42,460 nt of DNA from Methanobacteriota archaeon (GTDB taxonomy: Archaea > Thermoplasmatota > Thermoplasmata > RBG-16-68-12 > JAFNFQ01), in NCBI GenBank assembly GCA_017885655.1, contig JAFNFQ010000065.1, positions 1 through 42,460 on the forward strand, in the 5' to 3' direction. The position numbers were made by a program, and so were the translations under genes. Shown in pieces: positions 16,254 to 42,460 of this stretch. Numbering within the stretch: the first letter of the stretch is position 1; each line of letters opens with the position of its first letter. The notes beneath the pieces were generated by a model that was given only the letters and a program-made list of their open reading frames with translations, was not told the origin of the DNA and ran no database searches.

Positions 16254-19200
16254 TCAGTCTGTCGGCGGCGGTGGGAGCCCTATGTGCGATTGTGTCGGCT
16301 CCGCAGGAGGCGGTGGTGGGAGTCTGCGTGGCTGAGTCGTCTTCTGCTCCGGCTGCCTCCTCCTTCGTGCCAAGGCGACGATGACGAGCATGGACAACGA
16401 GGCGATTATCCCCGCAAGGAGGGCGTAGACGGTCCATGGCGGGACATTCTGCGTGGAGTCTGGATTGGCGCTCGCAAGACTGCGGACGCCGAAGCCCATC
16501 TGCTTCTCCGCCATATTGCCCGCCTTGTCGAAAGCTCTCAGGATGATCGTGTGGTTGCCGTTGACAAGAATGCGTTCCGCACTCGTGGCGATTCCCTGGT
16601 TCTCGAAGGAACCGCCGTCCACGCTCAACTCGACGCGGTCGAGGCCAGACATGTAGTCGCGTCCCCGCCACACGATATTCACATTGGAATCGTCGACATC
16701 GCCCATCGGGGAATCGATATCGATTATCGGTGCCGCGCAGTCCATCTTGATGGACGTGCTTTGTGTAGTCTCGATGTGTCCAGCAACGTCCTGCGAATAG
16801 TAATCGATGAAGTGCGTTCCATCGGCTGTTATCGCAAACGGGCCTACGTAGTTGGTCCATGAACCGCCGCCGATTCTGTACACGGTCCGACTTACGCCGC
16901 TCGTCGCATCCGCGGCGGCTATCGTATACGTCGCCGCACTGACATGCCAGTCGTTCTGCCCCATCGTCGAGTCCAGGCTGATCGTGCTTGCAGGGCCGAC
17001 GGTGTCGATCCCAATGGTGATTCTGTTGACGCTTTCGGTGTTACCTGCGTTGTCGGTCGAGTAATACTCGATGATGTTCGTCCTGTCGCCAGCGACGTCT
17101 ATTCCCGCCATGTACGATTGCCACAAGCCGCCATTGAAGCGGTAGTAGGTGCTCTTCACCCCGGTCGTCGCGTCGATCGCAGACAGGGTCACCACGGCGG
17201 GAGAGACGAACCATCCGTTCTGTCCGCTCGTCCCTGCAACCGCACTATCCGTTGTCGGCGGCAGACTGTCGACGGTGAACCCGATTGATTTCTCCGTGGA
17301 AAGTCCCGCCGCGTCAACTGCCCTGATGGTGATGCTGTGCAAACCCTCGGAAAGTCCGGAGAGCTGCTGCGACATCGCGCCCGGCAGTTGCACAGCGAAC
17401 GGAGACCCGTCGAGGCTGGTCTCGATGCGGTCGAGTCCGCTCACGATGTCCAAAGCGCTCCACGTGATGGTCACCGAGGCGGTGTTGAACACCGTGCCAT
17501 CTGTCTGGATGATCTGAAGTATCGGTGCATCGTGATCTATGCTGATTGTTGTGTTTGCCACGATCTCCCTGTTCCCCGACACATCCTCCGAGTAGTACTC
17601 AATCGTGTGCGCGCCGTCAGCGAGGATCATGAAGAAACCCGTGTAGAGCTGCCAGGCGCCCGAATCGAGCCTATACGCTGTCCAGCCAATCCCGCTGGTG
17701 TCATCGAATGCCGAAAAGGACAGACCGACATCTGACGTGTACCAGCCATTGTTACCCAGCGTTCCCGTGACCGATATGACGGTCGCGGGCGTCTCTTGGT
17801 CGACCCTGATTTCCACCGAGTCCGGGGCCCCCATGTTTCCTGCAACGTCTTGGGACTCGAACTCAATCACGTGCACGTCGTCCAAGTCGAACAGGCAGAG
17901 GTTGCCATACTGCCAACCGCCGCCATCGATCCTGTACCTCGTCCAGCTGACGCCGCTGTCGGCATCCGTGGCTATGAGGGAAACCGAGACCGGCGTCACG
18001 TACCATCCGCCCGCACCCATCGTGCCGCTCAGGTCCGCCGCGGTACCCGGACCCGCCGTGTCTATCTTCACGTTGGCGCGCTTTTCGACTTCCGTGTTCC
18101 CGACCAGGTCGACCGAGTAATAGTCAATGAAGTGCGGGCCATTCCCCGAAACCGCGAAGGGAGAGTTGTAGGTCGTCCACGCGCCACCGTCAACGCGGAA
18201 CCGGGTGTAGTCCACGCCGCTGCCGTTTTCGTCGGACGTGCTCAGGGTAATCGTCACTGCACTCACGTACCATCCAATGAAGCCCATGGTCCCGCTCACG
18301 AGGGCCATCGTGACCGGTGGGGTGGTGTCGATTATGATGCTGTCAACCCACCCGCAGTCGCCGCGCTCGCTCGTGCCCGCGCTCTTGATGTACTCCCACT
18401 TGAGCGTGTGCGGCCCCGTCGGTATCGAATAGTGCATCGGTTGCCAATCCAGGTCGCCGCTAATCGCGGCGTACTTCATTCCATCGATGCTGAATGACAG
18501 GAAATCCAAGCCGGTCTCCGAGGAGACCTTCCAGTTGAACCATATCTCCACCGGACCGATCACCGATGTCTGCATGTCCGAGACCTCGAGGTCCCCGATG
18601 TCGCCGCTCTGCATCGACGAGCCCCCCCGGTAGGAGTGGTGATCCACCGCCGTCCAGGTCGCGAGCGTGTTGGAGCTGAAAACCAGCCCCGCCATGTCGA
18701 GCGCTATGTCCGCTGGAATGCTGACGTAATGTCGCAAATGGTTTGTCACAATATTCGGCGTCTGCTTCGGGACATCCGGCGACTGTCCTGAAACCTGAGT
18801 CGGCTGCCCCGGCGTGTACCCGCCGTCGTAGGATTCCACTTTGAAGTCCGATATCACGCCGGCCGAGGAAGAAACCCCGATGCTGAGGAAAAAGTCAGTG
18901 TAGCCGGCATCATAGTCGGCCCTGAAATCGGTCATGTCGAGCGCCATGAACGTCGGGAACCTGTGGGCGTTCTCATGCGCGAAAACGGGAATCCTCGAGT
19001 CTTGCGGCGAGGTGAACGAACCGATGCCGACCTGGGGGTCGGCAGACCTTGTCGGTGCGGTGTTGAAGTGCCAGACGGCGAGGAGACTCGGGACGTAATC
19101 CGTCATGTCCACTATGTAGGTCAGATTGAGTACGCCTATCAGGCCCAGCTCCTTGAACGCGTCGTACGTCAGCCAGTAGAAGCCGCCGTCGCCCCAGCCC

Positions 19201-20153
19201 GCGCCCCAGGAGTTCACGACCCTGAACGCTCCCTTCTCACTGCCGTCCTGTATCGAGTCGTCATAGCCCACGATTGTCTGCGCGTGGTTCAGCCCTAAGG
19301 AATTGTATTCTCTGGCGGACATGATCCAGTCGCCGTCCGCGAAAGCTGCATCGTACTGTCCCGCGTCGAACGCGAACGTGACAGGCGTGCCAGAGGAGAT
19401 GAGCGTCTTGACGGAATCAACCGTCGTCTGACCGAGGTAGCCTATGCCCCTCACTTCGCTGGCCCTGTGGAGCGGCGCCTCCCTGAATGCCGCCATGGAA
19501 CCCCAGCTGACGGGATCGCTCGGGTTGTAGGGCATCGTCGCCAATGTCGCCCCGCCCCAGTCGCGGATTATATCCATGTTCGTTGACATCCATGAACCGC
19601 CATCCCCGCCGCCGTTGACCTTGTTGTAGGTCCATGCCGCCGACATCAGATGGTTCGAGGCACCAATCTTCGCATCGGTCCAACCGTTGTCAGTTGCCTC
19701 GATGTAACCATAGCCGTAATACGTCGCGGCCCAGGCCGCGCACGATCCCTGCCACTGCTGGTTACCCACTTTCGGGAACGTCGGGTTGGCCGTGAGGTCG
19801 ACCGAGGATGCGAGCAATCCTCTTGGTGCGACGGAGTCAACGATGACGAATTGCCCAACCATCCGGGCCCATTCCTCATCCGTCGGCGGTGCCAGGCCAG
19901 TGCCGTGCCCGTCGAAGAGGATGTTGTAGTTCCTTCCAGGTTCCCTGACACCGACGACCTTCTTCATCTCCAGCATCTCCTGTGAGGTCATCTTGTGGGC
20001 GGCATAGGTGAACCCGCCGCTATCGACGAAGATGACTTCATCGGGGAGGACGACTGCAGTCGTCCTCTGAGCAGTCACGGTCAGAGTCGAGAAGAAGCAT
20101 GCGGTCAAAGCTAACGTCATGACTAACGCTGAAACTGTTCGCCAGTTGGCCAT
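16254..20153 (-). CDS. Secreted/anchored papain-like (C1A) cysteine protease with seven Ig-like repeat domains, C-terminal TM and Pro-rich tail
   Basis: Signal peptide; QQWQGSCAAWAATYYG (Gln/Cys), LNHAQTIVGYDDS (His), VVNSWGAGWGDGGFYWLTYD (Asn); repeats YRIDGGxW...HFIDYYSxDVAGN; TM VYALLAGIIASLSMLVIVALARRRR; tail RRLPPPPPAEPTQSHIGLPPPPTD. Confidence 0.92.
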   Translation of the reverse strand: MANWRTVSALVMTLALTACFFSTLTVTAQRTTAVVLPDEVIFVDSGGFTYAAHKMTSQEMLEMKKVVGVREPGRNYNILFDGHGTGLAPPTDEEWARMVGQFVIVDSVAPRGLLASSVDLTANPTFPKVGNQQWQGSCAAWAATYYGYGYIEATDNGWTDAKIGASNHLMSAAWTYNKVNGGGDGGSWMSTNMDIIRDWGGATLATMPYNPSDPVSWGSMAAFREAPLHRASEVRGIGYLGQTTVDSVKTLISSGTPVTFAFDAGQYDAAFADGDWIMSAREYNSLGLNHAQTIVGYDDSIQDGSEKGAFRVVNSWGAGWGDGGFYWLTYDAFKELGLIGVLNLTYIVDMTDYVPSLLAVWHFNTAPTRSADPQVGIGSFTSPQDSRIPVFAHENAHRFPTFMALDMTDFRADYDAGYTDFFLSIGVSSSAGVISDFKVESYDGGYTPGQPTQVSGQSPDVPKQTPNIVTNHLRHYVSIPADIALDMAGLVFSSNTLATWTAVDHHSYRGGSSMQSGDIGDLEVSDMQTSVIGPVEIWFNWKVSSETGLDFLSFSIDGMKYAAISGDLDWQPMHYSIPTGPHTLKWEYIKSAGTSERGDCGWVDSIIIDTTPPVTMALVSGTMGFIGWYVSAVTITLSTSDENGSGVDYTRFRVDGGAWTTYNSPFAVSGNGPHFIDYYSVDLVGNTEVEKRANVKIDTAGPGTAADLSGTMGAGGWYVTPVSVSLIATDADSGVSWTRYRIDGGGWQYGNLCLFDLDDVHVIEFESQDVAGNMGAPDSVEIRVDQETPATVISVTGTLGNNGWYTSDVGLSFSAFDDTSGIGWTAYRLDSGAWQLYTGFFMILADGAHTIEYYSEDVSGNREIVANTTISIDHDAPILQIIQTDGTVFNTASVTITWSALDIVSGLDRIETSLDGSPFAVQLPGAMSQQLSGLSEGLHSITIRAVDAAGLSTEKSIGFTVDSLPPTTDSAVAGTSGQNGWFVSPAVVTLSAIDATTGVKSTYYRFNGGLWQSYMAGIDVAGDRTNIIEYYSTDNAGNTESVNRITIGIDTVGPASTISLDSTMGQNDWHVSAATYTIAAADATSGVSRTVYRIGGGSWTNYVGPFAITADGTHFIDYYSQDVAGHIETTQSTSIKMDCAAPIIDIDSPMGDVDDSNVNIVWRGRDYMSGLDRVELSVDGGSFENQGIATSAERILVNGNHTIILRAFDKAGNMAEKQMGFGVRSLASANPDSTQNVPPWTVYALLAGIIASLSMLVIVALARRRRQPEQKTTQPRRLPPPPPAEPTQSHIGLPPPPTD

Positions 20154-23368: not shown

Positions 23369-23398
23369 GAGAGAGGGAGGTCTACTCTCCGTCTCTCC
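23368..23398. terminator. Imperfect inverted repeat between convergent gene ends (possible bidirectional terminator)
   Basis: GGAGAGA GGGAG GTCTACT CTCC G TCTCTCC: 7 bp, one mismatch, 4 bp; overlaps the stop codons of the MMPL and DUF11 genes. Confidence 0.4.
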
Positions 23399-26300
23399 CC
23401 CAAGTTGTTCTTCCCGTGATTGAGAAGGCGCAGGATTGTGTCGTCGAGCTCGATGTCGGCAAGGATGCTGGACCGGCGGAGGCAGGTGAGATTGTAACCT
23501 CTGCTAGACCAGGCTCCCTCGCGTTCAGGGAGGCTTTCATGTCGATTGTGGGCTGAACCTTCGTGTCAATCGGGATTTCCCGCAGGCCGGCGGCGTCTGA
23601 TTGCATTTCATCTGGAAGAGACTTGACGCTCTCATCGATGCATTCGCGTGCGGTGTCGGGCGAGGTGGGGGTCATCTGGTTCAGGGCGTAGTGCGTTGCT
23701 CCGACGTCGCGATTCCGGATGCCGCTGTCGCTCAAGCCAACGTGACCAATATTGCCTTCCGTGATTGGCCGGGGTGGCACGCTTCGCGGGCTCACCGCCG
23801 GCGTTTGTTTCAGGAGCGCTCCGTTCACCGGTTCGACTTCTGGGGTGGCTGGCGTGATTCCAGGCGCGGTGTTGAGGCCGCCATTGATCGGGCTGACATC
23901 GTTTATGCCATCGATATCGGGGGCTATGAGTACAGAATCCAGGAAAGCCCGCAGTTGTTCGATGAAGTTGCCGTTGGCATCCGAGTAGTCCAATGTGGCT
24001 TCGTTCGTCACCACTGTGCCGTTGACCTCGAAGATGTAGCTGATATTCGTGAAGACGTAGCCCTTTCCTCCGGCAGCGACATATCCGATGTACCATGTGT
24101 ACACATCGCCGCTGGAGGAATCATAGGGTGGGCTGGAATTCAGCAGCGTCGACCCCGCCGGGAGGATGTCGCTGACGACCACATTGGTGGCGTCGCCGGT
24201 CCCGATGTTCTCATAGACGACCGTGTACGGGATTGTGGCGTCGAACGTGATCGGCTCGTTCTTGATGTAGGGTAGGAAGTCGGGGATTTCCCATATCCAA
24301 GTGTCCTCATGCCTCACGTTGAAGTTGTGGAACAGCCTCTTGACGTCCCCGTCCCTGAAGGTCAAGGTGAGCCAGCATGGGTCGTCACCCCACCATTGCC
24401 CGTTGATCGGGTCATCTAATGGCGTGTATACGATTCGGGCCGCGAACGGTCTGAGAACGTATATCCTGACGTTGTACACCGTGACGGATTGATCGTCTGG
24501 CGAGCCGGGGTAGCGCGTGACTGAAGCCACCTCTGTCCAAACGTTACCATCCCAGAGTGAAAGGCGGACATCGTGCCACTTCTCGCCCGCTATCCGGATC
24601 GTGAAGTTCGCCATGACGAACGCTCCGTATGTGATGTTTCCTGCGGTCTTCTCGAAGGTCATCACAGGCGCTGTCACGGCCGCGTCCGCGTATCCGCTCA
24701 ACTGCTCGATGAAGTTGCCGTTTGCGTCGGAATAGTCAAGCGTTGCGGCATTGTGCAACTGTGTCTGGTCCGCCGTGCCCACGTTGACCATGACGACGAC
24801 CGTGATGCTCACGCTGGTCGAGGGCGCGACAGACTCGATATCCCAGGTCAAGACCTGTCCGAATATCGAGGTCGGCTCAATCGACGCCAAGATGAGGGTG
24901 ACATCCGCGGGTAGAGTGTCCGCGATATTCACATCGCCCGCGTATCCCGTTCCGGTGTTCTCGTAGTGCAGTGTGTAGGTGATATAGTCGCCGGGATCCG
25001 CCTTGTCGGCATCTGCGGACTTGGTGAAGGTCATCACTGGTGCGGTTACATGGACATCCCAATAGCCGCCAATCTGCGGGTACTGGTTGCCGTTGGCGTC
25101 AGCGTAGCCGAGATCGGCTGTGTTGTGCAGAAGGATCCGGTCAGCGGTGCCAGGCTCGACCTGTACGACGAGCGATATGCCGCCACTGCCGCCGCCGACG
25201 TTGCCGATGTTCCAGTACAACGTGGCTCCGTTTTGGCTGTCTGGCAATGGAGTGGAGTCGTAGAATGTCACGTGGTCAGGCATGGTGTCGCTCACGACGA
25301 CGTCTGTCGCCATGCCGGCGCCGCTGTTCTCGTAGCATAGTTGATATGTGATGTAGTCGCCGGGGTCTGCGGTCGTTACATCGCCGGTCTTCTCAAAGCT
25401 GAGGACGGGTGCGGTGACCTGAACATCCGCGTAGTCGCTGATCGGCGGGTAGACGTTCCCGTTCGCGTCGGCATATTCGAGCGTCGCAACGTTGTGCAGT
25501 ATCGTCTTGTCAGGCAGGCCGACCTGGACACTCACCGTTATGATGATCTGGCCGTACTCGCTCGGGCCCACATCCCCCAGGTCCCATGTGTAGACGTTGC
25601 CGTTCACGCTCGTATACGTCGGGGACGAGGCGACGAACTGTACATGGTCCGGCAGAGTGTCCTGTATCACGACTCCCGAGGCCCATCCTGTTCCGAGGTT
25701 CTGCCAGTTGAGCGTGTAGGTGATTTCGTCTCCCGGGTCGGCCGTGTCGACGTTGGCCACCTTGTAGAAGGTGAAGTCGGGCGCGGTGACCACCGCGTCC
25801 GCGTAGGCAACGAGCTGCTGGTACGGGTTTCCATTATCATCGTTGTAGTCTGCCGTCGCGTAGTTGTGCAGCAGCGTCTGGTCGGGTGTGTACGCGTCGA
25901 CTTCCACCACGATGATTATCGTGATGCTCTCCCCCGGCCCGAGGGATCCCCGGTACCAGGTGTATGTCCTGCCGCTCACGCCCGAATACTCCAGATTCGA
26001 CGAGATGAAAGTCACATGCTCCGGAATCGTGTCGGAGATGTAGATGTCTGTCGCGCTCCCGCTGCCGGAATTCGCGAATATGACCGTGTAGGTGATCTGG
26101 TCGCCGGGATCGGCGTATTCGACGTCCGCGGTCTTCGTGAGGTCCACGACAGGGGCGGTGACGGTTGTGTCCGCATCATCGCTCAGCTGATCGTAACAGT
26201 TGCCGTTCGCGTCAGCATAGTCCAGCGTCGCAACGTTGTGCAGCAAGGTCGCATCGGGTGTGCCAGCGTCGACCTGGACAACGATGACTACACTGCCGCC

Positions 26301-29300
26301 GTTGCCATCGCCTAGGGCGGCCCCAATGTCCCACTCATAAGTCCTTCCGTTCACCTGGTCATACGAGGGTGTCGAACTCACAAACGTGACATGTTCGGGG
26401 ATGGTGTCTGTGATCACTACGCCGGCCGCGACGCCGCTCCCGCTGTTGTAGTACGTGATCGTGTAGGTGATGTAATCACCCGGATCCGCCTCGGTCACGT
26501 CGGCGACCTTGCTGACATGGAGGATTGGCGCTGTGACGGTGACCTGGGCTTCGCCCGGCAACTGCTCGTACGCATTCCCGTTCACGTCGTCGTAGTCGAG
26601 CGTGGCGGTGTTGACCAGGAAGGTGCCGTCCGGGGTGCCGACATCGACCATCACTGTGATTGTGATGTCGCCTGATGTGTGCGCCCCGACGGTACCGACA
26701 TCCCACGTCAGGACCCTGCCTGAGATGGAGTCGGGGTATGGGCTTGCGGTGATGAATGCCACATGCTCAGGCAGGGTATCCACGACAACGACCGCGGTCG
26801 CCGCCCCGCTGCCGCTATTCCCGTAATGTAGTGTGTAGACAATTTGGTCTCCTGGATCGGCCGTCGTGACATCGGCGCTCTTCATGAAACTCATGACAGG
26901 CGCACTCGTCTCGACGTCAAAGGAATCGCTTAGTTGCGGGTAGTAGTTGCCGTTGGCGTCGGCATAGTCGAAAGTCGCCACGTTGTGGAGGAGGGATCCA
27001 TCCGGCGTCCCAGCGTCCACAGTGGCCCGCAATACGACCGTCTCGGTCGCGCCGGGGGCGACGTCGCCGATGTCCCAGGTTATCGTGTTCCCCGATATCG
27101 AGTCTGGGTAGGGCGTCGCGTCAAAGAATGTCATGTAAGTGGGCAGGTAATCCACGAGGACGACGAGACTCGCCATGCCGGTGCCCGTGTTCTTGTAGGT
27201 GAGAGTGTAGGTTACAGTGTCGCCAGGGTTGGCCAATTCGACGTCGGCCTCCTTCGAGAACGACATCACCGGCGCAGTCACGGTTGTGGTCGCGTCATCG
27301 CTCATCTGCGGGTAGTAATTCCCGTTTGCGTCAGCGTAGTCGAAGGTCGCGACATTGGTCAGCGCGGTCTGGTCGGCCATGCCAGCGTCCACCTGAACGG
27401 TGATCGTTATTGTGCCGGTGACCCCGGCGTCAACCGTCCCGACGTCCCACTCGTAAGTCTTGCCGCTTACGCTAGAGTACGAAGGCGACGATGATACGAA
27501 GGCGACACCATTCGGTATCGTGTCCTTCACAATCACGCCGGTAGCGACTCCCGTCCCGATGTTCTTGTAGGTCAAGGCGTACTGTATGTAGTCGCCAGGG
27601 TCCGCAAAAGCCACATCAGCGGATTTGCTGAACGTCATGACGGGAGCGGTCACTGTCGTGGATGCGCTGTCCGAGAGCTCGTTGCCAGGGTTCCCGTTTG
27701 CGTCATCATAATTGAATGTGGCGGTGTTAGTGAGGACGGTCTGGTCTGTCACTCCTACATCCACATTAACGGTGACAGTTATCGTGCCTGAGCTTTCAGG
27801 TGCGACATCACCAATGTCCCACGAATAAGTCCTGCCATTGACGCTCGTGTACCATGGATTGGCGGTTTGGAACGTGACACGCTCGGGGATCGTGTCGGTG
27901 ACAACTACTCCGGTAGCCCATCCAGCCCCGTCGTTGCTATAGGTCAGCGTATAGGTAATCGTGTCGCCAGGATTGGCGAACTGGACATCCGCCACCTTAC
28001 TGAAAGACATGACAGGAGCCGTGACAATCACGGTCGCCTCGTCCGACAGCTGGTTGTCCGGGTTCCCGTTCGCGTCATCGTAATCCAATGTGGCTGTATT
28101 AATTATCCCCGTGCCGTCGGGAGTCCCGGCGTTCACTTTCACCTTGAGGATTATATTCCCCTCAGCCCCGGCAGGGACAGTCCCCACGTTCCATGTGTAG
28201 GTGCGCCCGCTGACGCTGCTGTACCACGGGTTCGCATCATAGAAGGTCGTGTAGGATGATATCGTATCCTTGACGACCACGTCTGTGGCATCTCCTGTCC
28301 CTGTGTTCTTGTATTGCAGGGTGTAGGTGATGACGTCGCCAGGATCGGCCTGGCTGACATCCGCGCTCTTCGTGAAGGTCATCACGGGTGCAGTGACAGT
28401 CGTGGTTGCGCTGTCGGTCATCTGCGGATAGCTGTTGCCGTTCACGTCCGCATAGTCAAGAGTCGCATGGTCGGTGAGCCCTGTCTGGTCAGGCGTCCCT
28501 GCGTTGATTTCAATCGTTATCGTGATGGTTCCGTCATCGCCCGGAGCGAGATCGCCCACGTTCCACGTGTACGTCATGCCACTCACGGAATCGTATCCCG
28601 GCGAGGAACTCACATAGGTCACGTGGTCGGGGATCGTGTCGGTGACAACCACTCCGGTGGCCCAACCGGTCCCTACATTCGCATAAGCCAGCGTGTAAGT
28701 GACTTTGTCGCCCGGGTCTGCGAACTCGGCGCTGGCTGTCTTGGAGAAAGTCATCACGGGCGCGGTGACCGTCGTGGTCGCGCTGTCTGACTTTTCCGGG
28801 TAGGGGTTGCCGTTTGCATCATCGTAGTTGAATGTGGCCACATTGATCAGTTCGGTGCCGTCTGGCACGAAGGCGTTCACTTTCACCACTATGGTGATCG
28901 TGCCGCTGGCTCCGCCGGCGAGCGAGCCGATGTTGTAGGTGTACACGCGCCCGTTGACGCTGCTCGGGGATGGCGTGGAAGAAACGAAGGTCACATGCTC
29001 TGGGATGGTATCTTGAATCACGACTCCGGTCGCTGTGCCGGTGCCTGTGTTGTGATAGCTCAGCGTGTAAGTAAGCAGGTCCCCAGGGTTTGCGTTCGTT
29101 ACATCGACGCTCTTGTCAAACGTGATGATGGGGGCTGTCACCGTCGTGGTCGCGCTGCCCGGTTCCTCTGGATATGGATTGCCGTTCGCATCGTCGTAGT
29201 TCATCACCGCCACGTTTTCCAAGATTGTGTCGTCAGGGGTGCCCGCGTTCACTTTCACCGTAATAACCACGGTGCCGCTCGTCTCAGCAGGAACCGAACC

Positions 29301-31451
29301 GATGTCGTATGTGTACATGCGTCCGTTGACGTTGCTCGGTGACGGGGTTGAGGATATGAACGTGGTGTATTCGGGGATCGTGTCGACAATGACGACGCCC
29401 GTAGCTGTGCCGTTCCCGGTATTGTGATATGCCAAAGTATAGGTGATGATGTCTCCGGGATCCGCTGTCGTGACATCCGCGGTCTTGCTGAAAGACATGA
29501 CCGGCGCGGTCACCGTGATATTCTTCCAGTCGTCGACTGGCGGCTCGGGGCCACCGGGGCCATTGTACTTCACGCTGCCAAGGTTGGCCAGCACCGTCCC
29601 GTCTGGCGTCCCAATGTCGACTTGGACGGTAATGGTCACTTCTCCCGATGCACCCGCGTTGACGTCGCCGATGTTCCACGTGTAGACCTTCCCGCTGACG
29701 GTGCTATAAGGTGGAGCGGAGCTAACGTAGGTCACATGATCTGGGACGGTGTCCTGGATTACCACGTCGTAAGCAGTGCTGCTGCCAGTATTTGCATAGT
29801 GCAGAGTGTAGGTTATTTCGTCGCCGGGATCGGCCGCGTCTTGGTCGGCTGTCTTGGTGAAGGCTAATTGAGGAAGGCCAACGACCGGCTCAGTGTAGAG
29901 CGGTGGCGTGGGGCCGTCGAAGATTGTCGCGCCCGATGTCCCGCTCTTCCCTGCCGCGTAGGCGCCGGCGTTGAGCATGATGGTCTGGCCCGCCTTCTCG
30001 GGCCCTGGGAGCAGAAACACCTGATAGTCCAAGGTCGCGCTCGTATTCGGTGCCAACATCCCGACGCTCCACGTTATCTTGCCGGTGAGTGGGTCGAAAG
30101 ATAGCGATCCTTGTGTGACGGTGTATATGCCGAGCCACGTGACGTCGCTGAGCTGGGCCGTGTCAGTCACGACAACATTGGTTGCAGTGTCCGCGCCCGT
30201 GTTGGCGACATTGATGCTGATCTCATAGACGGTGGTCTCGCCAACGATTGGCGGGTTGGGGCCGCTCACGACGCCACCTGGATAGCTCTCTGAGAAGTAC
30301 TTTGAGATGTCGAGGACCGCCGGGTTTACTCCGCCAGGCACGTGGCTCTGGAAGTTTCTATATCCGGTGTCAACCTTCCAAGTGTCACCGCCCTTCTTCG
30401 TCTGTATGTAGGGAATGACTTCACTGAAACCTATTTCCCTCACTTCGAACGTGTAGTCGGTCACCCAGAAGTCCTTGTTATCGGTGTCGCCTAGATCCGA
30501 GCCAGTGTACTGCTGCTTGTCAGTCCAATACATGCTGTAGCCCGGAGGGACGCCGTCGACTATGCTGCCGGGATCGTAATCGTCATAGAAGTACATGGAG
30601 ACGGACATCATCCTGATGCTGATTCCATTGAAATAGCACTGGAGTATGAACCAATCCAGCCCCTGGGCGCTGGATTGTTGGTACATGCTGCGGACATGGA
30701 ACAAGTCCCCCGCGTCCGCGAACACAATCTTGGGCTCCGTGTCGATCCATTCAAGGTCGTTCTGGCCGATGGATGCCGTCTTACCCATTTCTATCGTGTA
30801 GAGGTCGGAAGTGATGGTCTGCATCGAGCCGCCCTCGGTCGTGCTGAAATTCAGCTCCAATTGGAACTGCTCCATGTCGTCAACGAGTGAGAGCGAAGCG
30901 GAGTTTGAGCCGTTGTAGTCGGAACCGGGCGTGGTGTTCACCGGGACATAGCCGGTCTTGTTCAGATTCCAATATATGTAGTAGGTGCCGACAGCCAGCT
31001 GGCCATCGTTCAAACCATCGAGCATGTCGAGGTTCCTCGGTGTGTCATCGTCTATGATCAGGTCATTGACACTGTCGTAATTGTAGTCAAGCATCGTTGC
31101 GGATGGGCTGTATATGACCTCGGTTGTGGCTATCTTCCCTAAAAGGAAAGCCTCCTCCGGGTCCGCCTCAGATTTTGTCGGCGGGAAACCGTCTTTGTCG
31201 CTTGCGCGCGTCGTGGGATCGAGCACCGCCCAAGGCGAAAGTATTGTCGCCGTCGGGAGGCTCTCTGGCGGATTCGATTGCGGTGCATTTTGGTTCTGGC
31301 TGATTGCCAGTGCCGTGAAAGCACTCGCAAGAATCGCGGTCGCAACTATGGCACTCGTCACGCGGCGGGAGAGGACCTGCCGCACTTTCTTGGCTCCGAT
31401 ATTTACCAATGCTCCACTCACCCAGGGCGAAGAGACGACCCGAGTCGCCAC
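23382..31451 (-). CDS. Giant secreted/surface protein (about 2.69 kaa) with tandem DUF11-type repeats
   Basis: Signal-like VRQVLSRRVTSAIVATAILASAFTALA; repeats of KTADVxxADPGDxITYTLxYxNTGTGxATxVVVxDTIPxHVTFxSSxP...YTWDIGxVxxGxxGxITITVxVxxGTPDxTxLxNxATxDYxDANGNxYxQ. ORF track starts at 31571 but a TATA-like element at 31511-31520 argues for a GTG at 31451. Confidence 0.88.
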   Translation of the reverse strand: MATRVVSSPWVSGALVNIGAKKVRQVLSRRVTSAIVATAILASAFTALAISQNQNAPQSNPPESLPTATILSPWAVLDPTTRASDKDGFPPTKSEADPEEAFLLGKIATTEVIYSPSATMLDYNYDSVNDLIIDDDTPRNLDMLDGLNDGQLAVGTYYIYWNLNKTGYVPVNTTPGSDYNGSNSASLSLVDDMEQFQLELNFSTTEGGSMQTITSDLYTIEMGKTASIGQNDLEWIDTEPKIVFADAGDLFHVRSMYQQSSAQGLDWFILQCYFNGISIRMMSVSMYFYDDYDPGSIVDGVPPGYSMYWTDKQQYTGSDLGDTDNKDFWVTDYTFEVREIGFSEVIPYIQTKKGGDTWKVDTGYRNFQSHVPGGVNPAVLDISKYFSESYPGGVVSGPNPPIVGETTVYEISINVANTGADTATNVVVTDTAQLSDVTWLGIYTVTQGSLSFDPLTGKITWSVGMLAPNTSATLDYQVFLLPGPEKAGQTIMLNAGAYAAGKSGTSGATIFDGPTPPLYTEPVVGLPQLAFTKTADQDAADPGDEITYTLHYANTGSSTAYDVVIQDTVPDHVTYVSSAPPYSTVSGKVYTWNIGDVNAGASGEVTITVQVDIGTPDGTVLANLGSVKYNGPGGPEPPVDDWKNITVTAPVMSFSKTADVTTADPGDIITYTLAYHNTGNGTATGVVIVDTIPEYTTFISSTPSPSNVNGRMYTYDIGSVPAETSGTVVITVKVNAGTPDDTILENVAVMNYDDANGNPYPEEPGSATTTVTAPIITFDKSVDVTNANPGDLLTYTLSYHNTGTGTATGVVIQDTIPEHVTFVSSTPSPSSVNGRVYTYNIGSLAGGASGTITIVVKVNAFVPDGTELINVATFNYDDANGNPYPEKSDSATTTVTAPVMTFSKTASAEFADPGDKVTYTLAYANVGTGWATGVVVTDTIPDHVTYVSSSPGYDSVSGMTYTWNVGDLAPGDDGTITITIEINAGTPDQTGLTDHATLDYADVNGNSYPQMTDSATTTVTAPVMTFTKSADVSQADPGDVITYTLQYKNTGTGDATDVVVKDTISSYTTFYDANPWYSSVSGRTYTWNVGTVPAGAEGNIILKVKVNAGTPDGTGIINTATLDYDDANGNPDNQLSDEATVIVTAPVMSFSKVADVQFANPGDTITYTLTYSNDGAGWATGVVVTDTIPERVTFQTANPWYTSVNGRTYSWDIGDVAPESSGTITVTVNVDVGVTDQTVLTNTATFNYDDANGNPGNELSDSASTTVTAPVMTFSKSADVAFADPGDYIQYALTYKNIGTGVATGVIVKDTIPNGVAFVSSSPSYSSVSGKTYEWDVGTVDAGVTGTITITVQVDAGMADQTALTNVATFDYADANGNYYPQMSDDATTTVTAPVMSFSKEADVELANPGDTVTYTLTYKNTGTGMASLVVLVDYLPTYMTFFDATPYPDSISGNTITWDIGDVAPGATETVVLRATVDAGTPDGSLLHNVATFDYADANGNYYPQLSDSFDVETSAPVMSFMKSADVTTADPGDQIVYTLHYGNSGSGAATAVVVVDTLPEHVAFITASPYPDSISGRVLTWDVGTVGAHTSGDITITVMVDVGTPDGTFLVNTATLDYDDVNGNAYEQLPGEAQVTVTAPILHVSKVADVTEADPGDYITYTITYYNSGSGVAAGVVITDTIPEHVTFVSSTPSYDQVNGRTYEWDIGAALGDGNGGSVVIVVQVDAGTPDATLLHNVATLDYADANGNCYDQLSDDADTTVTAPVVDLTKTADVEYADPGDQITYTVIFANSGSGSATDIYISDTIPEHVTFISSNLEYSGVSGRTYTWYRGSLGPGESITIIIVVEVDAYTPDQTLLHNYATADYNDDNGNPYQQLVAYADAVVTAPDFTFYKVANVDTADPGDEITYTLNWQNLGTGWASGVVIQDTLPDHVQFVASSPTYTSVNGNVYTWDLGDVGPSEYGQIIITVSVQVGLPDKTILHNVATLEYADANGNVYPPISDYADVQVTAPVLSFEKTGDVTTADPGDYITYQLCYENSGAGMATDVVVSDTMPDHVTFYDSTPLPDSQNGATLYWNIGNVGGGSGGISLVVQVEPGTADRILLHNTADLGYADANGNQYPQIGGYWDVHVTAPVMTFTKSADADKADPGDYITYTLHYENTGTGYAGDVNIADTLPADVTLILASIEPTSIFGQVLTWDIESVAPSTSVSITVVVMVNVGTADQTQLHNAATLDYSDANGNFIEQLSGYADAAVTAPVMTFEKTAGNITYGAFVMANFTIRIAGEKWHDVRLSLWDGNVWTEVASVTRYPGSPDDQSVTVYNVRIYVLRPFAARIVYTPLDDPINGQWWGDDPCWLTLTFRDGDVKRLFHNFNVRHEDTWIWEIPDFLPYIKNEPITFDATIPYTVVYENIGTGDATNVVVSDILPAGSTLLNSSPPYDSSSGDVYTWYIGYVAAGGKGYVFTNISYIFEVNGTVVTNEATLDYSDANGNFIEQLRAFLDSVLIAPDIDGINDVSPINGGLNTAPGITPATPEVEPVNGALLKQTPAVSPRSVPPRPITEGNIGHVGLSDSGIRNRDVGATHYALNQMTPTSPDTARECIDESVKSLPDEMQSDAAGLREIPIDTKVQPTIDMKASLNAREPGLAEVTISPASAGPASLPTSSSTTQSCAFSITGRTTWGRDGE
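24663..29867 (-). repeat. 14 consecutive ~124-aa (~372-bp) DUF11-type repeat modules
   Basis: Module starts LAFTKTADQ, MSFSKTADV, ITFDKSVDV, MTFSKTASA, MTFTKSADV, MSFSKVADV, MTFSKSADV, MSFSKEADV, MSFMKSADV, LHVSKVADV, VDLTKTADV, FTFYKVANV, LSFEKTGDV, MTFTKSADA; 5205 nt/14 = 372. Confidence 0.9.
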
Positions 31452-31510
31452 TCCTCTGCCACGACCACCGATGAAGTGATTGCGGCTTCCCCGCGGACCG
31501 ATTGAGAGGT

Positions 31511-31520
31511 GCTTATATCC
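31511..31520. promoter_or_regulatory. TATA-like element gcttatatcc in the divergent intergenic region
   Basis: AT-rich box between divergent DUF11-protein and ABC genes; spacing fits an archaeal TATA box for either direction. Confidence 0.45.
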
Positions 31521-31576
31521 CCATTTTGGCACAAGTGTGGAACAGCTGGTTCTCAAACTTGAAAAGAACAACCTTT

Positions 31577-36268: not shown

Positions 36269-36766
36269 TCATCGCTTGGAGGCTCTGACCGCGTCTTCAG
36301 CGAAAGGCGATTTCGCCGATCGCACCGCCATGTGCTCGCTTGCATAGGTCCCGAAGAAACCGCCGACGAAGAGCACCGCCCCGCCGAGAATGAGAAGCGG
36401 GAGCGCAGACCTGAGCGTGAAGAATATGTATTCCTCCGCGAACGGAATCTCGATCTCCGGAGAAAACGTCGGCGAGATGAACAGGATGTAGCCCAAGAGA
36501 GCGCCCTCCACGATGCCGAGAAGGATTTCCACGGCGAGCGTCTCGAGGCTGTCCGACAGAGCCCCGACAATCAGACCGAGGAGCAATAGGATCGCGCCCG
36601 CCAAGAGCAGGGAGGGATTCTTGGTCGTCGGAACGGACACGCTCGGCATCGTGACATAGAAAGAGAAGTATCCGACCGCGACGCCAATGGCTGCCGAGAG
36701 TGCGATTATCTTGAGGATCTTGATTGCATTCTCGCGGGTGAACTTCAGGGCGACTCCTCCGGCCAT
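36269..36766 (-). CDS. Hypothetical membrane protein
   Basis: 165 aa with about four hydrophobic segments; start overlaps the 3' end of the upstream gene. Confidence 0.7.
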   Translation of the reverse strand: MAGGVALKFTRENAIKILKIIALSAAIGVAVGYFSFYVTMPSVSVPTTKNPSLLLAGAILLLLGLIVGALSDSLETLAVEILLGIVEGALLGYILFISPTFSPEIEIPFAEEYIFFTLRSALPLLILGGAVLFVGGFFGTYASEHMAVRSAKSPFAEDAVRASKR

Positions 36767-37413
36767 GTCGTCACCTGCTCCTTGCGAATAACCGGCAATT
36801 CGATAAGGTAGCCCGAGTTCGGTCCGGTGTAGTCCGACGGGACGTCTGTGACCTTAAGCATGAAGACGAAGTAATGGGTCATCTCGAGATTCCTCCAACC
36901 CAGCCCGAGGTTGGTCAGGGCGAAGTTCATGATGTCCCTGGCGTGTTCAAAGCCCCCCGAGTTATCTGTCCGGCTGAAGTTCCAGGCACAGTAGAAGTCT
37001 TTGACGCTGTTCGCGGCGATCAGGCCGTCCGTGGGCCGGAGTGAGGGGTCCGCGACTATCATCGAGAAGGCCAGCGGCACCTGACTATGGGTCAGATTCT
37101 CCATGTAGTAGTCCCTGATCCACCCCTGATATTTCATGAACTGGAGAACCACGTCCTTCCGGCTCGGATTCGTCACATTTACATAAGCCACGTAGTGGAA
37201 GATCGTGTCATCGGTGACTTCGCCCGATGGTCCCAGATTAGATGTGGTGATGTTCAGGTCAGCGACCGGGGACACCGCAAGCTTGGCCATCGCGACGTCC
37301 GTGTAGTTGATCGCGCTCATTGTCGAGGCTGCCACGAAGACGAGGGAGACCGAGGTCAGCGTGACCCAGAGGGCTATTCGTATTCTGGCGACTCGGCGTG
37401 CGTCAAGTCGCAT
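36745..37413 (-). CDS. Hypothetical membrane-anchored extracytoplasmic protein
   Basis: N-terminal TM (IALWVTLTSVSLVFVAASTMSAI) then a soluble domain; start M(RLDARRV) at 37413 (alternative 37431); follows the opp operon on the same strand. Confidence 0.7.
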   Translation of the reverse strand: MRLDARRVARIRIALWVTLTSVSLVFVAASTMSAINYTDVAMAKLAVSPVADLNITTSNLGPSGEVTDDTIFHYVAYVNVTNPSRKDVVLQFMKYQGWIRDYYMENLTHSQVPLAFSMIVADPSLRPTDGLIAANSVKDFYCAWNFSRTDNSGGFEHARDIMNFALTNLGLGWRNLEMTHYFVFMLKVTDVPSDYTGPNSGYLIELPVIRKEQVTTWPEESP

Positions 37414-37418
37414 GCGGT

Positions 37419-38492
37419 TCACCCTTCCCATTCCTTTGGCGGGGACGGCGGGATTAATGATCCGACCGAGTAGAAATCGTGCGCGAAGTGGCAGAGGGTC
37501 GCATGTCCGGGACTGACCTCGACGTGCGCCGGTTCCACTTCCCTGCAAACCTGCTTTGCATAGACGCATCTGGTGTGGAAGCGGCACCCCTTCGGAATGT
37601 TGACCGGACTCGGGAGTTCTCCCGTGATCGGGACTATCGAGTACTCGTGCTCTGGATCCGGGACCGGGACTGCGGCCAAGAGCGCGCGCGTGTAGGGATG
37701 AGCGGGGCGCGAGATGACTTCCTCGGTCGGTCCCATCTCCGCCAGCCGCCCAAGGTACATGACGCCGATCGTGTCGGACATGTACCTGGCGACGGCGATG
37801 TCGTGCGTGATGAAGAGGAATGGGATGTCATACTTCTGCCTCAGCTCGAGCATGAGGTTCATCACTCCCGCCCGGATAGAGACGTCGAGCATGCTCACCG
37901 GCTCGTCAGCCACGATGAACCTTGGCGACACGACGAGCGCACGGGCGATGGCGACGCGCTGTCTCTGGCCCCCGCTCAGCTCGTGCGGGAACCGCCCGAG
38001 CAGCTCGTCCGCAGGCCTGAGCCCGGCATCCTCGAGCGCCTTGATCACCAGCTCCAGCCGCTCCTCCTGTGTCTCAGCAATGCCAAGAACGTTCAGCGGA
38101 TCCGCCACGGCGCGGAAGACCGTGAACCGCGGGTTCAAGGACTCATAGGGGTCCTGGAATATCATCTGCATGTACTTCCTGAAGCCGACCAGGTCGCTTC
38201 CCCTGAGAGTCGCGATATCCACGCCGAGGAAGTCTATGCGGCCGGACGAGGGATTCTCGAGGCGCGTGACCAGCCGACCGGTCGTGGTCTTGCCGCAGCC
38301 AGACTCGCCCACCAGCCCCATGATCTCCCCGGTGTGGATCTTGAACGAGACGCCGTCGACTGCCTTGACCGTGAGAGGGGGCGCGCCAAGCGCGAAGAAC
38401 CCGGCCTTCAGCTCGAAGTGCTTTACCAGGTTCTGGACATTCATCACGAATCCCGGTTCGACGGAGGGTTGGGTGGGCACGACCGCGCTCAA
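37419..38492 (-). CDS. Oligopeptide/dipeptide ABC transporter ATP-binding protein (OppF-like)
   Basis: Walker A GESGCGKTT, signature LSGGQRQRVAIARAL, C-terminal Cys motif CRFHTRCVYAKQVCREVEP; TTG start overlapping the upstream TGA is likely. Confidence 0.93.
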   Translation of the reverse strand: MSAVVPTQPSVEPGFVMNVQNLVKHFELKAGFFALGAPPLTVKAVDGVSFKIHTGEIMGLVGESGCGKTTTGRLVTRLENPSSGRIDFLGVDIATLRGSDLVGFRKYMQMIFQDPYESLNPRFTVFRAVADPLNVLGIAETQEERLELVIKALEDAGLRPADELLGRFPHELSGGQRQRVAIARALVVSPRFIVADEPVSMLDVSIRAGVMNLMLELRQKYDIPFLFITHDIAVARYMSDTIGVMYLGRLAEMGPTEEVISRPAHPYTRALLAAVPVPDPEHEYSIVPITGELPSPVNIPKGCRFHTRCVYAKQVCREVEPAHVEVSPGHATLCHFAHDFYSVGSLIPPSPPKEWEG

Positions 38493-39505
38493 ATGAACAC
38501 CTCCGGCGACAGCTTTCCCTGCAGGTCCTTCGCGAAGTGACAGAAGGAGATGTGCCCCGGACTCATCGTGAGTCCCGGCGGGTTCTGAGTCTTGCAGATG
38601 TCCTGCACGTAGGGGCATCTCGGATGGAAGCGGCAGCCGGTCGGCGGCTCGACGAGGCTCGGCGGATTCCCTTTGATCGTGGCGAGTCTCCGCACCTTCC
38701 CCTTTATGCTCGGGAAACTACCGAGCAGGCCAGAGGTGTACGGGTGGGCGGTCTCCTTGAAAATCTCCCTTGTCGTGCCCGTCTCCGAGATCTGACCGGC
38801 GTACATCACGGCGATTCGTTTCGCGGTCTTCGCGACGACGGAGACGTCGTGGGTGATTATGATCATGGCCATCTCGAGGCGGTCCTGGAGCTCTCTGACC
38901 TTCGTCAGTATCTTGTTCTGAGTAATCACGTCGAGTGCAGTCGTCGGCTCGTCTGCGATGACGAGCTTGGGGTTGAGGGCTAGTGCCATCGCTATCATCG
39001 CCCTCTGCTTCATCCCGCCGCTGTATTCATGCGGGAAATGGTCGATGCGGTCCACCGGGATCCCGACGAGGTTGTACAGTTGCTCGGCCCTTTGCCTGGC
39101 CTGCTGCTTCGTGACCCGCTCGTGGAACAATATCGCCTCTGCAATCTGGTCGCCGACGCGCTGGACCGGATTCAGGGCGTTCATCGCGCCCTGGAAAATC
39201 ATGGAAATCTCTTTCCACCTTATCTTGTTCAGCTCGTTGTCGTACTCCTTAAGCCTCCCGTCCTTCTTCATCGTCATCTTCAACAGGTTCTTGCCGTCGA
39301 AGATGACCCTCCCGCCCTTGATGTAGGCGTTCGAGGGCAAGAGCTGGGAGATTCCGTAGGCGAGCGTCGTCTTGCCGCAGGCTGACTCGCCGACCAGCCC
39401 CAAGGTCTCTCCCTTGTCCAGTTGAATAGAAACCCCGTCGGTTGCGTGCACCCAACCAGTCTTTATCTTGTAGTGCACGACGAGGTCCTGGACTTCGAGC
39501 AGCAT
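38489..39505 (-). CDS. Oligopeptide/dipeptide ABC transporter ATP-binding protein (OppD-like)
   Basis: GESACGKTT, YSGGMKQRAMIAMALALNPKLVIADEPTTALD, CRFHPRCPYVQDICKTQNPP. Confidence 0.95.
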   Translation of the reverse strand: MLLEVQDLVVHYKIKTGWVHATDGVSIQLDKGETLGLVGESACGKTTLAYGISQLLPSNAYIKGGRVIFDGKNLLKMTMKKDGRLKEYDNELNKIRWKEISMIFQGAMNALNPVQRVGDQIAEAILFHERVTKQQARQRAEQLYNLVGIPVDRIDHFPHEYSGGMKQRAMIAMALALNPKLVIADEPTTALDVITQNKILTKVRELQDRLEMAMIIITHDVSVVAKTAKRIAVMYAGQISETGTTREIFKETAHPYTSGLLGSFPSIKGKVRRLATIKGNPPSLVEPPTGCRFHPRCPYVQDICKTQNPPGLTMSPGHISFCHFAKDLQGKLSPEVFI

Positions 39506-39511
39506 GACTCC

Positions 39512-41779
39512 TCACCTCTCCCTCAGGCGCGGATTTATGATATCGTCTATCGCTCTCCCCACGAGGTAGAAACCCAGGGAGATCAGGGTGATGCACAGGC
39601 CCGGGGGCAGGAGCCACCACCAGGCGGTGAGGGTGTTGCCCGAGGAGCCCAGCGTCCTCAGCATGATTCCCCATGAGACGTTCGACGGCCTGGGGTCGCC
39701 CAGTCCGATGAAACTCACCGCAGCCTCGGTCAGAATCGCGCCCCCGACGCTTAGCGTCATGTAGAGGAAGGCGAACGGGAGGACGTTGGGAGCTATGTGG
39801 ACCACCATCGTCCTGCTCCTCGAGGCGCCGGATATCCTGGAGGCATCGACGAACGGTCTCTCCTTCAGGGACAAGGTCTGCGCTCGAATGACACGGGCTA
39901 TCCCCGGCCAGCCAAGTACCGCTATCACGATCACGATGTTCCATATGCTGGGACCGAGTATCGATGCGAGAATCAGGACCAGAGGCAGGAAAGGCAGCAC
40001 GAGCGCGATATCCGTTACCCTCATCAGCAGGGTGTCAAGGAATCCCCCGTAGAAGCCCGCAACGAGTCCGACGAGCGTCCCGATCACCACAGAGAATAAG
40101 GCGGCAAGCACCCCGACGATCAGCGCAACCCTCGAGCCCCATATCAGTTGCGTCAGGATGTCGTAGCCCTGGGCATCGGTGCCGAGGATGTAGGTGTTCC
40201 CCGAAGGATATGTGCCTGGAGGCAGAGGCGCTCTCGAGACCCCGAGCAACCTATAGACAACCATGTTCCCGGTGCTTGGCTCGAAGACCAGCGCGAGCAT
40301 CTCCTCGCTCGAGAGACCAATGGCGTACTTCGTCCCCGCCGAGCTGCCCATGTATTCTATGTATATCCTCAGTGGGTCGCTGTCCTTGAAGAAGTTAATC
40401 AGTCTCTGGCGAAGCCTCGTCTCGGAAACGGTGGGGGCGCTCCAGACGACCCCGTCCGTGTCAAGAGCCTGCACGAGCGAAGTGGTGGGACTGTAGAACA
40501 ACGACCTCACCGGCTTCGAGAGGCTGATGTTCAGGACGGAATCAAGAGTGCCGTTCGCCGATCCGCGCAATAAATCGCTCGAGGTCGCATTCCCGACGGC
40601 ATCGTAGTGGGTGAGAACGAAATGCGGGTTGCCCGAGTTGCCCGGGTCCGGCTGGGTTGTGATTGCAGACGATGAGCTATCGAATGTCAAGGTGCGGAAG
40701 ACCGTGAGGTTCCCCGCCGTGACGTTTCGGGGAAGGAGGTACCAGATGGCCGCCTTCGTGGCGGATCTCAGCGGGACGTACAGCATCTGGATCTCGGGGG
40801 CCCGGAAGTATCCTATCGGCGCGGTCATGTTGGCGGGCTCGCCCGATATCGCTAGGTCGAGGTCGAATCGAGCGGATCCGTTCAGGGTGAACACGGCCAG
40901 CTTGTTGTTGCTCGTCGGCACGAAGATGCCGGAGAGTTCGGGCTTCAGCTGGAGATAGTAGGCAAGCGGTTTCGCGGTGACCGGCATGTCGACCGAAAGC
41001 ACGGAGGCGATACCGAACTGGGGGATGGGCGGGTCGTCCTGACTAGATTTGTAGTTCACGCTGAAGACCTGGACATGCGTGTCCGACGCGGCGACTATGT
41101 ATCGGTCGGAGTGCAGGCCGCCGGTGTCGTTCCTTATCTGGAACGGGAAGTCGTACATCTCTCCGGCGGAGACCGGGTCCTCCACCAGCCATCTGGGCTG
41201 GAACCCGATGTACTCCGAATGCAGTTTCCTCTTTGTGAACGGATCGAGCAGGACGAAGTAGCCGTTCGCCACGAAGCCGATCAGGCCGTTCTTCGTCAGG
41301 TCGTCGTCCGTGGCCCGCTTGCCTAGGTTGTCGCGCCCCGGCACGAGGTACAGGACGTTGGAGAGCGGCGTGCTGAACCCGAAATCGGTGATGTTGATCC
41401 AAATGGTCCGTCCGGGGATTGAGAACGGGCTCTCGTTCTTCGCGACCGAATCCATCACGATCTTGCCGTTGCTGTCGGCAACGATTATCCAGAGCCTGCC
41501 GTCATCCTCGGTCGGGTCTTTCGGGGACGACGGTCCGATCACCGGCTCGAAGAAGCTGCCAGTGGTGTTGTACGTCTTGCTGTAGCTGGCGGGAACGAAT
41601 ACGTCGACGTCAGGGGCGAGGAACTCGGGGCTGTATGGAGAAATCATCGGTGCGAACACGGCCATGAACACGAACACGGTGATTATCGCGGTACCCGCTA
41701 GGCCGAGCTTGCTGCGCTTGAAGAGGTTCCAGGACTTCTTGAGCGCGATCCAGAATGCGCTGAGGCCGCCGATTGCCAC
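39512..41779 (-). CDS. OppC/DppC-like ABC permease with ~480-aa extracytoplasmic insertion
   Basis: N-terminal TM plus C-terminal permease core GTDAQGYDILTQLIWGSRVALIVG and EAA-type loop FVDASRISGASRSRTMVVHIAPN; extra region aa ~54-532. Confidence 0.93.
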   Translation of the reverse strand: MAIGGLSAFWIALKKSWNLFKRSKLGLAGTAIITVFVFMAVFAPMISPYSPEFLAPDVDVFVPASYSKTYNTTGSFFEPVIGPSSPKDPTEDDGRLWIIVADSNGKIVMDSVAKNESPFSIPGRTIWINITDFGFSTPLSNVLYLVPGRDNLGKRATDDDLTKNGLIGFVANGYFVLLDPFTKRKLHSEYIGFQPRWLVEDPVSAGEMYDFPFQIRNDTGGLHSDRYIVAASDTHVQVFSVNYKSSQDDPPIPQFGIASVLSVDMPVTAKPLAYYLQLKPELSGIFVPTSNNKLAVFTLNGSARFDLDLAISGEPANMTAPIGYFRAPEIQMLYVPLRSATKAAIWYLLPRNVTAGNLTVFRTLTFDSSSSAITTQPDPGNSGNPHFVLTHYDAVGNATSSDLLRGSANGTLDSVLNISLSKPVRSLFYSPTTSLVQALDTDGVVWSAPTVSETRLRQRLINFFKDSDPLRIYIEYMGSSAGTKYAIGLSSEEMLALVFEPSTGNMVVYRLLGVSRAPLPPGTYPSGNTYILGTDAQGYDILTQLIWGSRVALIVGVLAALFSVVIGTLVGLVAGFYGGFLDTLLMRVTDIALVLPFLPLVLILASILGPSIWNIVIVIAVLGWPGIARVIRAQTLSLKERPFVDASRISGASRSRTMVVHIAPNVLPFAFLYMTLSVGGAILTEAAVSFIGLGDPRPSNVSWGIMLRTLGSSGNTLTAWWWLLPPGLCITLISLGFYLVGRAIDDIINPRLRER

Positions 41780-41811: not shown

Positions 41812-42460
41812 CTACAACCTCACCCGCGGGTCAAGCCAGGCATACAGCAGATCCGCCACGATGTTGCCCACGATCACGAGGATGGCCAAGATGAAGAGGG
41901 TCGCCCCCGCGAGGAAGTGATCCTGGATGAGGATGGCCTGGAGGAAGTAGTAGCCTACTCCCTGATAGGTGAATATCTGCTCGAGGATGATCGCGCCTCC
42001 GACGGAATAAGCTAGGGCTATCGTGAACGAGGTGACCACCGGCAGATACGCGTTCCTGTTCGCGTGGCGTCGCCTGACGATGCGCTCCGGCAACCCCTTC
42101 GCCCTCGCCGTGAGTATGTAATCCTCCTTGAGGACCTCGAGCAGGGAAGTCCTCATCAGGAGTATGACGCCGGCGAGGCTGATGAGCACTAGGACGACGA
42201 GAGGCAGTACCATGTGCCACATGTAGTCGAAGGGGCGCGCCAAGATGTTGTTCTCGAGGAACGGAAACTTCCTGACCAGGTCCGCCATGTTCGCCGACTG
42301 GAAGCCCGAGAGCGGGAACCACCCAAACTGGAATGCGAATATCCAGATGAAGATCAGGCCGATCCAGAACGAGGGCATGTTGTAGAAGAACAGACTGAAG
42401 AGTATCCAGCCGCCCTCTTCGACACCTCCGCGTTTCCAGCCGATCCGGGAACCCACGACG
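41812..42460 (-). CDS. OppB/DppB-like ABC permease, 5' end truncated by window end
   Basis: MRTSLLEVLKEDYILTARAKGLPERIVRRRHANRNAYLPVVT EAA loop; TYQGVGYYFLQAILIQDHFLAGATLFILAILVIVGNIVADLLYAWLDPRVRL C-terminus. Confidence 0.93.
   Translation of the reverse strand, partial: VVGSRIGWKRGGVEEGGWILFSLFFYNMPSFWIGLIFIWIFAFQFGWFPLSGFQSANMADLVRKFPFLENNILARPFDYMWHMVLPLVVLVLISLAGVILLMRTSLLEVLKEDYILTARAKGLPERIVRRRHANRNAYLPVVTSFTIALAYSVGGAIILEQIFTYQGVGYYFLQAILIQDHFLAGATLFILAILVIVGNIVADLLYAWLDPRVRL

Follow-up and report, generated by a model that had tools for sequence, protein, structure and literature searches.

In the usual picture of ABC importers, short loops make the contact with the binding protein, and the locus described here raises the question of what a whole folded domain would be doing in the OppC-type permease of a putative archaeal peptide importer. 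In the window analysed, a stretch of 42,460 nucleotides, this permease is encoded by a single unbroken open reading frame with a GTG start (Table 1). Two Pfam domains delimit the protein, OppC_N at residues 14-52 (E 2.9e-10) and BPD_transp_1 at residues 567-753 (E 1.7e-29), which is the arrangement of TM1 domain and core that characterizes the OppC/DppC family; no significant Pfam match was obtained between the two. The DppC/OppC proteins of E. coli and M. tuberculosis with known structures (cryo-EM 8z1v, 8z21, 8j5q, 8wd9) share the permease core and the operon partners, but they are 287-302 aa long, possess a short TM1-TM2 loop without an inserted domain, and align to the window permease only from residue ~520 (phmmer E 1e-32 to 1e-49 over residues 520-755; Foldseek TMt 0.57-0.72). 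Since OppC_N ends at residue 52 and this alignment begins at ~520, the insert was delimited to residues ~54-524. The ORF, Pfam matches and alignments thus confirm the original prediction of a 755-aa OppC-type permease with a large insert after TM1. The proposed start near residue 54 is retained, whereas the proposed end (residue 532, position 40183) slightly overlaps the core and is moved to residue ~524 (position 40208). The spacing between TM1 and the core is consequently ~470 residues, compared with 22-44 in ordinary OppC proteins; the short loop and overall length of ~300 aa from which the window permease departs are traits of size and not criteria of homology. The N-terminus ahead of TM1 carries five K/R and no D/E, consistent with an N-in orientation, and this positive charge (positive-inside rule), together with the topology of DppC, would place the insert outside the cell.

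The permease gene is accompanied by genes for OppB and two oligo_HPY ATPases. The four cysteines of OppD have a spacing (6/7/18) that matches the [4Fe-4S] site of DppD in E. coli (PMC12136057). The OppC insert aside, the transporter conforms to the standard for type I peptide importers, with canonical OppB, OppD and OppF; that it imports peptides is presumed from the family to which it belongs.

Table 1. Coordinates of the importer genes, the parts of OppC and other genes of interest in the window.
Feature	Position	Strand	Basis or remark
OppC-type permease with extracytoplasmic insert, 755 aa	39512..41779	-	ORF, Pfam, alignment to solved DppC/OppC
TM1, residues 25-43	41651..41707	-	Pfam, topology
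Inserted domain, residues ~54-524, predicted ~8-bladed β-propeller, 11 sequons	40208..41620	-	
Permease core, residues 525-755: TM2-TM6, BPD_transp_1, coupling-helix region	39512..40207	-	
OppB permease, 3' part	41812..42459	-	N-terminus (BPD_transp_1_N) on the same contig but outside the window, past two N
OppD ATPase, C-terminal oligo_HPY, 4-Cys motif	38489..39505	-	Pfam
OppF ATPase, oligo_HPY, 4-Cys motif	37419..38444	-	ORF opens at 38618; likely start Met 38444
280-aa ORF just downstream of OppF	36745..37587	-	One TM helix, several sequons, no Pfam family
2729-aa surface-type protein	23382..31571	-	16 DUF11 repeats
1299-aa papain-family peptidase with Ig-like domains	16254..20153	-	Plausible secreted peptide source

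In order to predict the fold of the insert, a single-chain AlphaFold2 model was built from an alignment of 19 relatives carrying homologous inserts (mean pLDDT 76.8; ~80 across most of the insert). In this model the insert is all-β, with ~31 strands spanning residues 65 to 510 of the permease, which at four strands per blade corresponds to about eight blades. When the PDB was searched with Foldseek, DppC/OppC structures ranked first and were followed by β-propellers, from E 2e-8, including WD40 proteins, the designed eight-blade protein Cake8 (TMt 0.69) and BamB (TMt 0.60). The radial four-stranded blades of the model and these structural matches make it very probable that a β-propeller is built into OppC. 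The original prediction had suggested a β-propeller/PQQ-like fold; the compact domain and the propeller are borne out by the predicted structure, while the PQQ profile, like those for kelch and WD40, gave no Pfam match to the window insert.

The insert had also been described as rich in N-x-S/T sequons, and this holds up well: 11 are present, against 3.7 ± 1.7 in shuffled sequences (an approximately threefold enrichment, with none of 2000 shuffles reaching as many), and the core of the same permease has a single one. Among 65 relatives, 596 sequons were counted in the inserts where 285 were expected, and only 12 in all of the cores together. As the genome also encodes an STT3/AglB-type oligosaccharyltransferase, both the sequon excess and the enzyme expected for an N-glycosylated surface protein are at hand, and the insert is likely to be N-glycosylated.

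When 84,980 genomes were scanned for the permease core, 398 relatives were recovered, the best 80 of which were examined. Two odd labels aside, these 80 come from archaeal MAGs titled Thermoplasmata, Thermoplasmatota, DHVE2/Aciduliprofundum, Methanomassiliicoccales or unresolved Euryarchaeota. An insert of 427-888 aa (median 496) is found at the same site in nearly all complete proteins among the best 80 of the 398, the outliers being L063 (gapped), L097 and L088 (truncated at the start) and L075 (fused to OppB). The architecture is therefore not the rarity that had been implied; judging from the best 80 of 398 relatives, it is what members of this OppC clade normally have in Thermoplasmata. 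The original prediction had named a common and already characterized architecture as grounds for its refutation: common it is, but a search of the open-access literature for an OppC with a propeller or a permease with PQQ returned no relevant description. Propeller-bearing OppC is conserved in many Thermoplasmatota and is apparently undescribed.

The loops following TM1 of OppC fall into three size classes (22-44 aa, 185-235 aa and 440-890 aa), the window permease belonging to the largest. Ordinary members were tallied by profile search; ORF length is uninformative as a bacterial control, since a GC-rich genome inflates the length of stop-to-stop frames. The 22-44-aa class also occurs in Thermoplasmata, as paralogs in other genomes, and no short OppC was found in the genome studied here, both Opp systems of which are of the propeller type. 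The 185-235-aa class is found in the phylum of G061 (labelled Bathyarchaeota) and in some Thermoplasmata (archaeal examples are L147-L151, L158 and L167-L169); its insert occupies the same extracytoplasmic site after TM1 but is half the size and lacks the junction motif ahead of the core. At the other extreme, inserts of ~800-890 aa are present in L076, L090, L093, L098 and L073, that of L076 consisting of tandem kelch and PQQ propellers.

By sequence, three clusters of inserts were distinguished among the best 80 of the 398 relatives: A (25), B (23) and C (21). The window insert belongs to cluster C, and the PQQ-like OppC insert of the second Opp system of the same genome (contig C30) to cluster A. 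Cluster A inserts contain internal repeats and match the PQQ (PQQ_2) and kelch families of Pfam, with kelch and PQQ propellers arranged in tandem in one group; BamB/PQQ-repeat and kelch propellers share the fold of the window insert, but a sequence match to them is seen in these cluster A relatives and not in the window insert. A separate model of a cluster B relative also predicted a propeller, and BamB was the closest match to it outside the permeases. On the strength of these models and profiles, the inserts of all three clusters are predicted propellers at one site. The alignment of cluster A with cluster B has a probability of 94.5%, whereas cluster C aligns only weakly to either (E about 1e-3), and its homology to them is putative at the level of sequence. 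Two motifs at the junctions, AP-x-x-D after TM1 and SGN-x-Y-x-LG ahead of the core, are shared by 56 of 65 relatives, and the second of these was seen in none of the 11 OppC proteins with short or medium inserts that were checked. In a tree of the cores only, the large-insert proteins group together, albeit with weak support (SH-aLRT 82) and with the exception of the divergent 797-aa L166. Distribution of the insert labels on this tree requires 10 changes (minimum 5; mean of shuffled labels 55), suggesting that the inserts have been inherited together with the permease core. A single ancient insertion followed by divergence would be the simplest history. Swapping of three unrelated inserts into one site is not favoured, given the shared junction motifs, the alignment of A with B and the agreement of the labels with the tree.

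What, then, might the propeller do? In the E. coli importer, DppA forms a cap over DppB and DppC, and a scoop motif between TM1 and TM2 of DppB reaches into the cleft of DppA (PMC12136057). Because the propeller fills the equivalent loop of the other subunit, it would lie beside the landing site of OppA. The OppA proteins of the related loci end in a TM helix, possess Ig-like domains where scanned, and differ in size along with the OppC insert: class A is associated with OppA of 916-1031 aa and a mostly enlarged OppB, class B with OppA of 1473-1645 aa and an OppB of ordinary size (~335 aa), and the soil and groundwater orthologs of class C with OppA of ~1620-1670 aa when complete. The size class of OppA and the OppB insert thus track the OppC insert class, although shared ancestry could also have produced this coupling. 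We tentatively favour, with a confidence that falls just short of even and well below that in the fold and architecture, the view that the propeller is a docking and retention platform, specific to this lineage and probably N-glycosylated, for a large, C-terminally membrane-tethered OppA. This idea was already contained in the original prediction, and we too place it ahead of recruitment of another partner and of a peptide sieve. The TM1-TM2 extracytoplasmic loop of OppC, in an OppBCDF importer of type I, would have been expanded to a whole β-propeller projecting from the outer face beside the OppA landing site, where it would keep OppA locally concentrated and/or close off the vestibule during passage of the peptide to the pore. 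It would thereby play the part that the P2 loop of MalF plays for MalE. P2 is likewise a folded extracytoplasmic domain between TM helices of one permease subunit, lying beside the binding protein (PMC8134467); the parallel would be functional, since P2 belongs to another permease family, occupies another loop, has another fold and is much smaller. GlnPQ and OpuA importers also have extracytoplasmic domains that are covalently part of the permease (PMC8025302), but those have the substrate-binding fold, to which neither Pfam nor Foldseek found a match in the window insert, and here separate OppA genes persist. As the sequence of the propeller is far less conserved than that of the core, no binding patch was identified on it.

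A bolder proposal, which we consider possible but rather doubtful, is that a distinct class of peptide importer has evolved in Thermoplasmatota, with large extracytoplasmic domains that match one another acquired by the permease, the binding protein and, in some cases, OppB. In this view the OppC propeller would form a ring at which docking is obligatory, in co-evolution with the giant tethered OppA, and a further propeller could be acquired at the fixed site, as where kelch is added to PQQ. A clade with a 50-kDa propeller in its permease offers a natural test of an extra docking surface, and of peptide capture and handover where binding proteins are tethered and an outer membrane is absent. 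The host archaea are widespread, mostly uncultured and in many cases probably peptide users, so that such importers are likely to represent a main nutrient route. All that annotation pipelines show of these proteins is the name 'ABC transporter permease' and an odd length.

Partners other than OppA were considered as well. By binding the S-layer or cell-surface matrix, or secreted peptidases, the propeller would position the importer at a supply of peptides, a scenario compatible with the abundance of sequons in this surface domain, with the common use of propellers as protein-binding scaffolds (cf. the BamB and WD40 matches) and with the gene for a large papain-type peptidase bearing Ig-like repeats elsewhere in the window (Table 1). 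We nevertheless judge it unlikely, as no such partner is consistently linked to the locus, the conserved neighbours being OppA, OppB, OppD and OppF. We judge about as unlikely a role as vestibule or sieve, in which the central channel or a face of the propeller over the pore would pass only unfolded or short peptides and OppA docking would be secondary. The propeller of prolyl oligopeptidase or DPP-IV limits access to the active site to just such peptides, and in the window permease a large eight-blade ring is predicted on the outer face, adjoining the translocation entrance of an importer whose substrate class is peptides. However, OppA itself must cap the pore (PMC12136057), which leaves little room for an on-axis ring, and the ~800-aa double propellers of kelch and PQQ type at the same site fit a scaffold better than a fitted sieve.

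The original prediction had also proposed that the permease acts as its own receptor, the propeller replacing the soluble binding protein, and had pointed out that no binding-protein gene is visible. The latter is true locally, since OppA is absent from this contig, but does not amount to a genuine lack, because the contig ends ~280 bp upstream of oppB. Of the 48 related loci in which 2 kb or more of sequence is available upstream of OppB, 41 have a family-5 binding protein directly upstream of it, the closest orthologs included. Seven cluster C loci with at least 2 kb upstream have no adjacent OppA, a lack noted in cluster C loci of DHVE2 type and, in favour of a receptor, in some DHVE2/Aciduliprofundum-type loci. 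The genome itself encodes six SBP_bac_5 proteins, all away from the window locus, one of them belonging to the giant class found alongside orthologs of the window permease. With OppA upstream in 41 of 48 relatives and six family-5 proteins elsewhere in the genome, the insert is most probably no replacement for OppA. Moreover, OppB keeps its N-terminal domain, and in E. coli DppB this domain holds the scoop motif contacting the binding protein (PMC12136057); a receptor function of the propeller is thus quite improbable. The SBP_bac_5 protein on contig C48 (1551 aa) aligns best to the OppA proteins of orthologous operons (544 bits over 1047 aa with that of L053), followed by that on contig C19. 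Neither adjoins oppB, and both are candidate partners, their pairing with this permease being suggested by these alignments.

Finally, an assembly chimera or fusion artefact of one metagenome bin, to which the fragmented genome (86 contigs) and the N gap in neighbouring oppB might point, has a negligible probability: full-length orthologs (40-48% identity) occur independently in other MAGs, which excludes chance and mis-assembly, and the same architecture is present in the single-contig genome G049 (1,486,778 bp). Several minor observations were made at this and related loci. Upstream of oppB, at the end of the contig beyond the window (L011:4040-4103), lies the tail of a proline-rich ORF (PPMQYPVQPPTQPPSQPPS, followed by a stop codon) which is unlike OppA C-termini. 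In L075 (3534-8690), an unbroken frame of 1718 aa apparently joins OppB and a propeller-bearing OppC, either as a natural fusion or as an effect of assembly. Thermoplasmata-type Opp loci are present in bins labelled Candidatus Eisenbacteria (L057) and Bathyarchaeota (L097), and are probably misbinned contigs, or else cases of transfer. Lastly, the OppB of the second Opp system of this genome (L010:4087-5898, contig C30) has an extracytoplasmic insert of its own, ~200 aa long, after TM1, and lengths of 560-697 aa are common among the OppB ORFs of class A.
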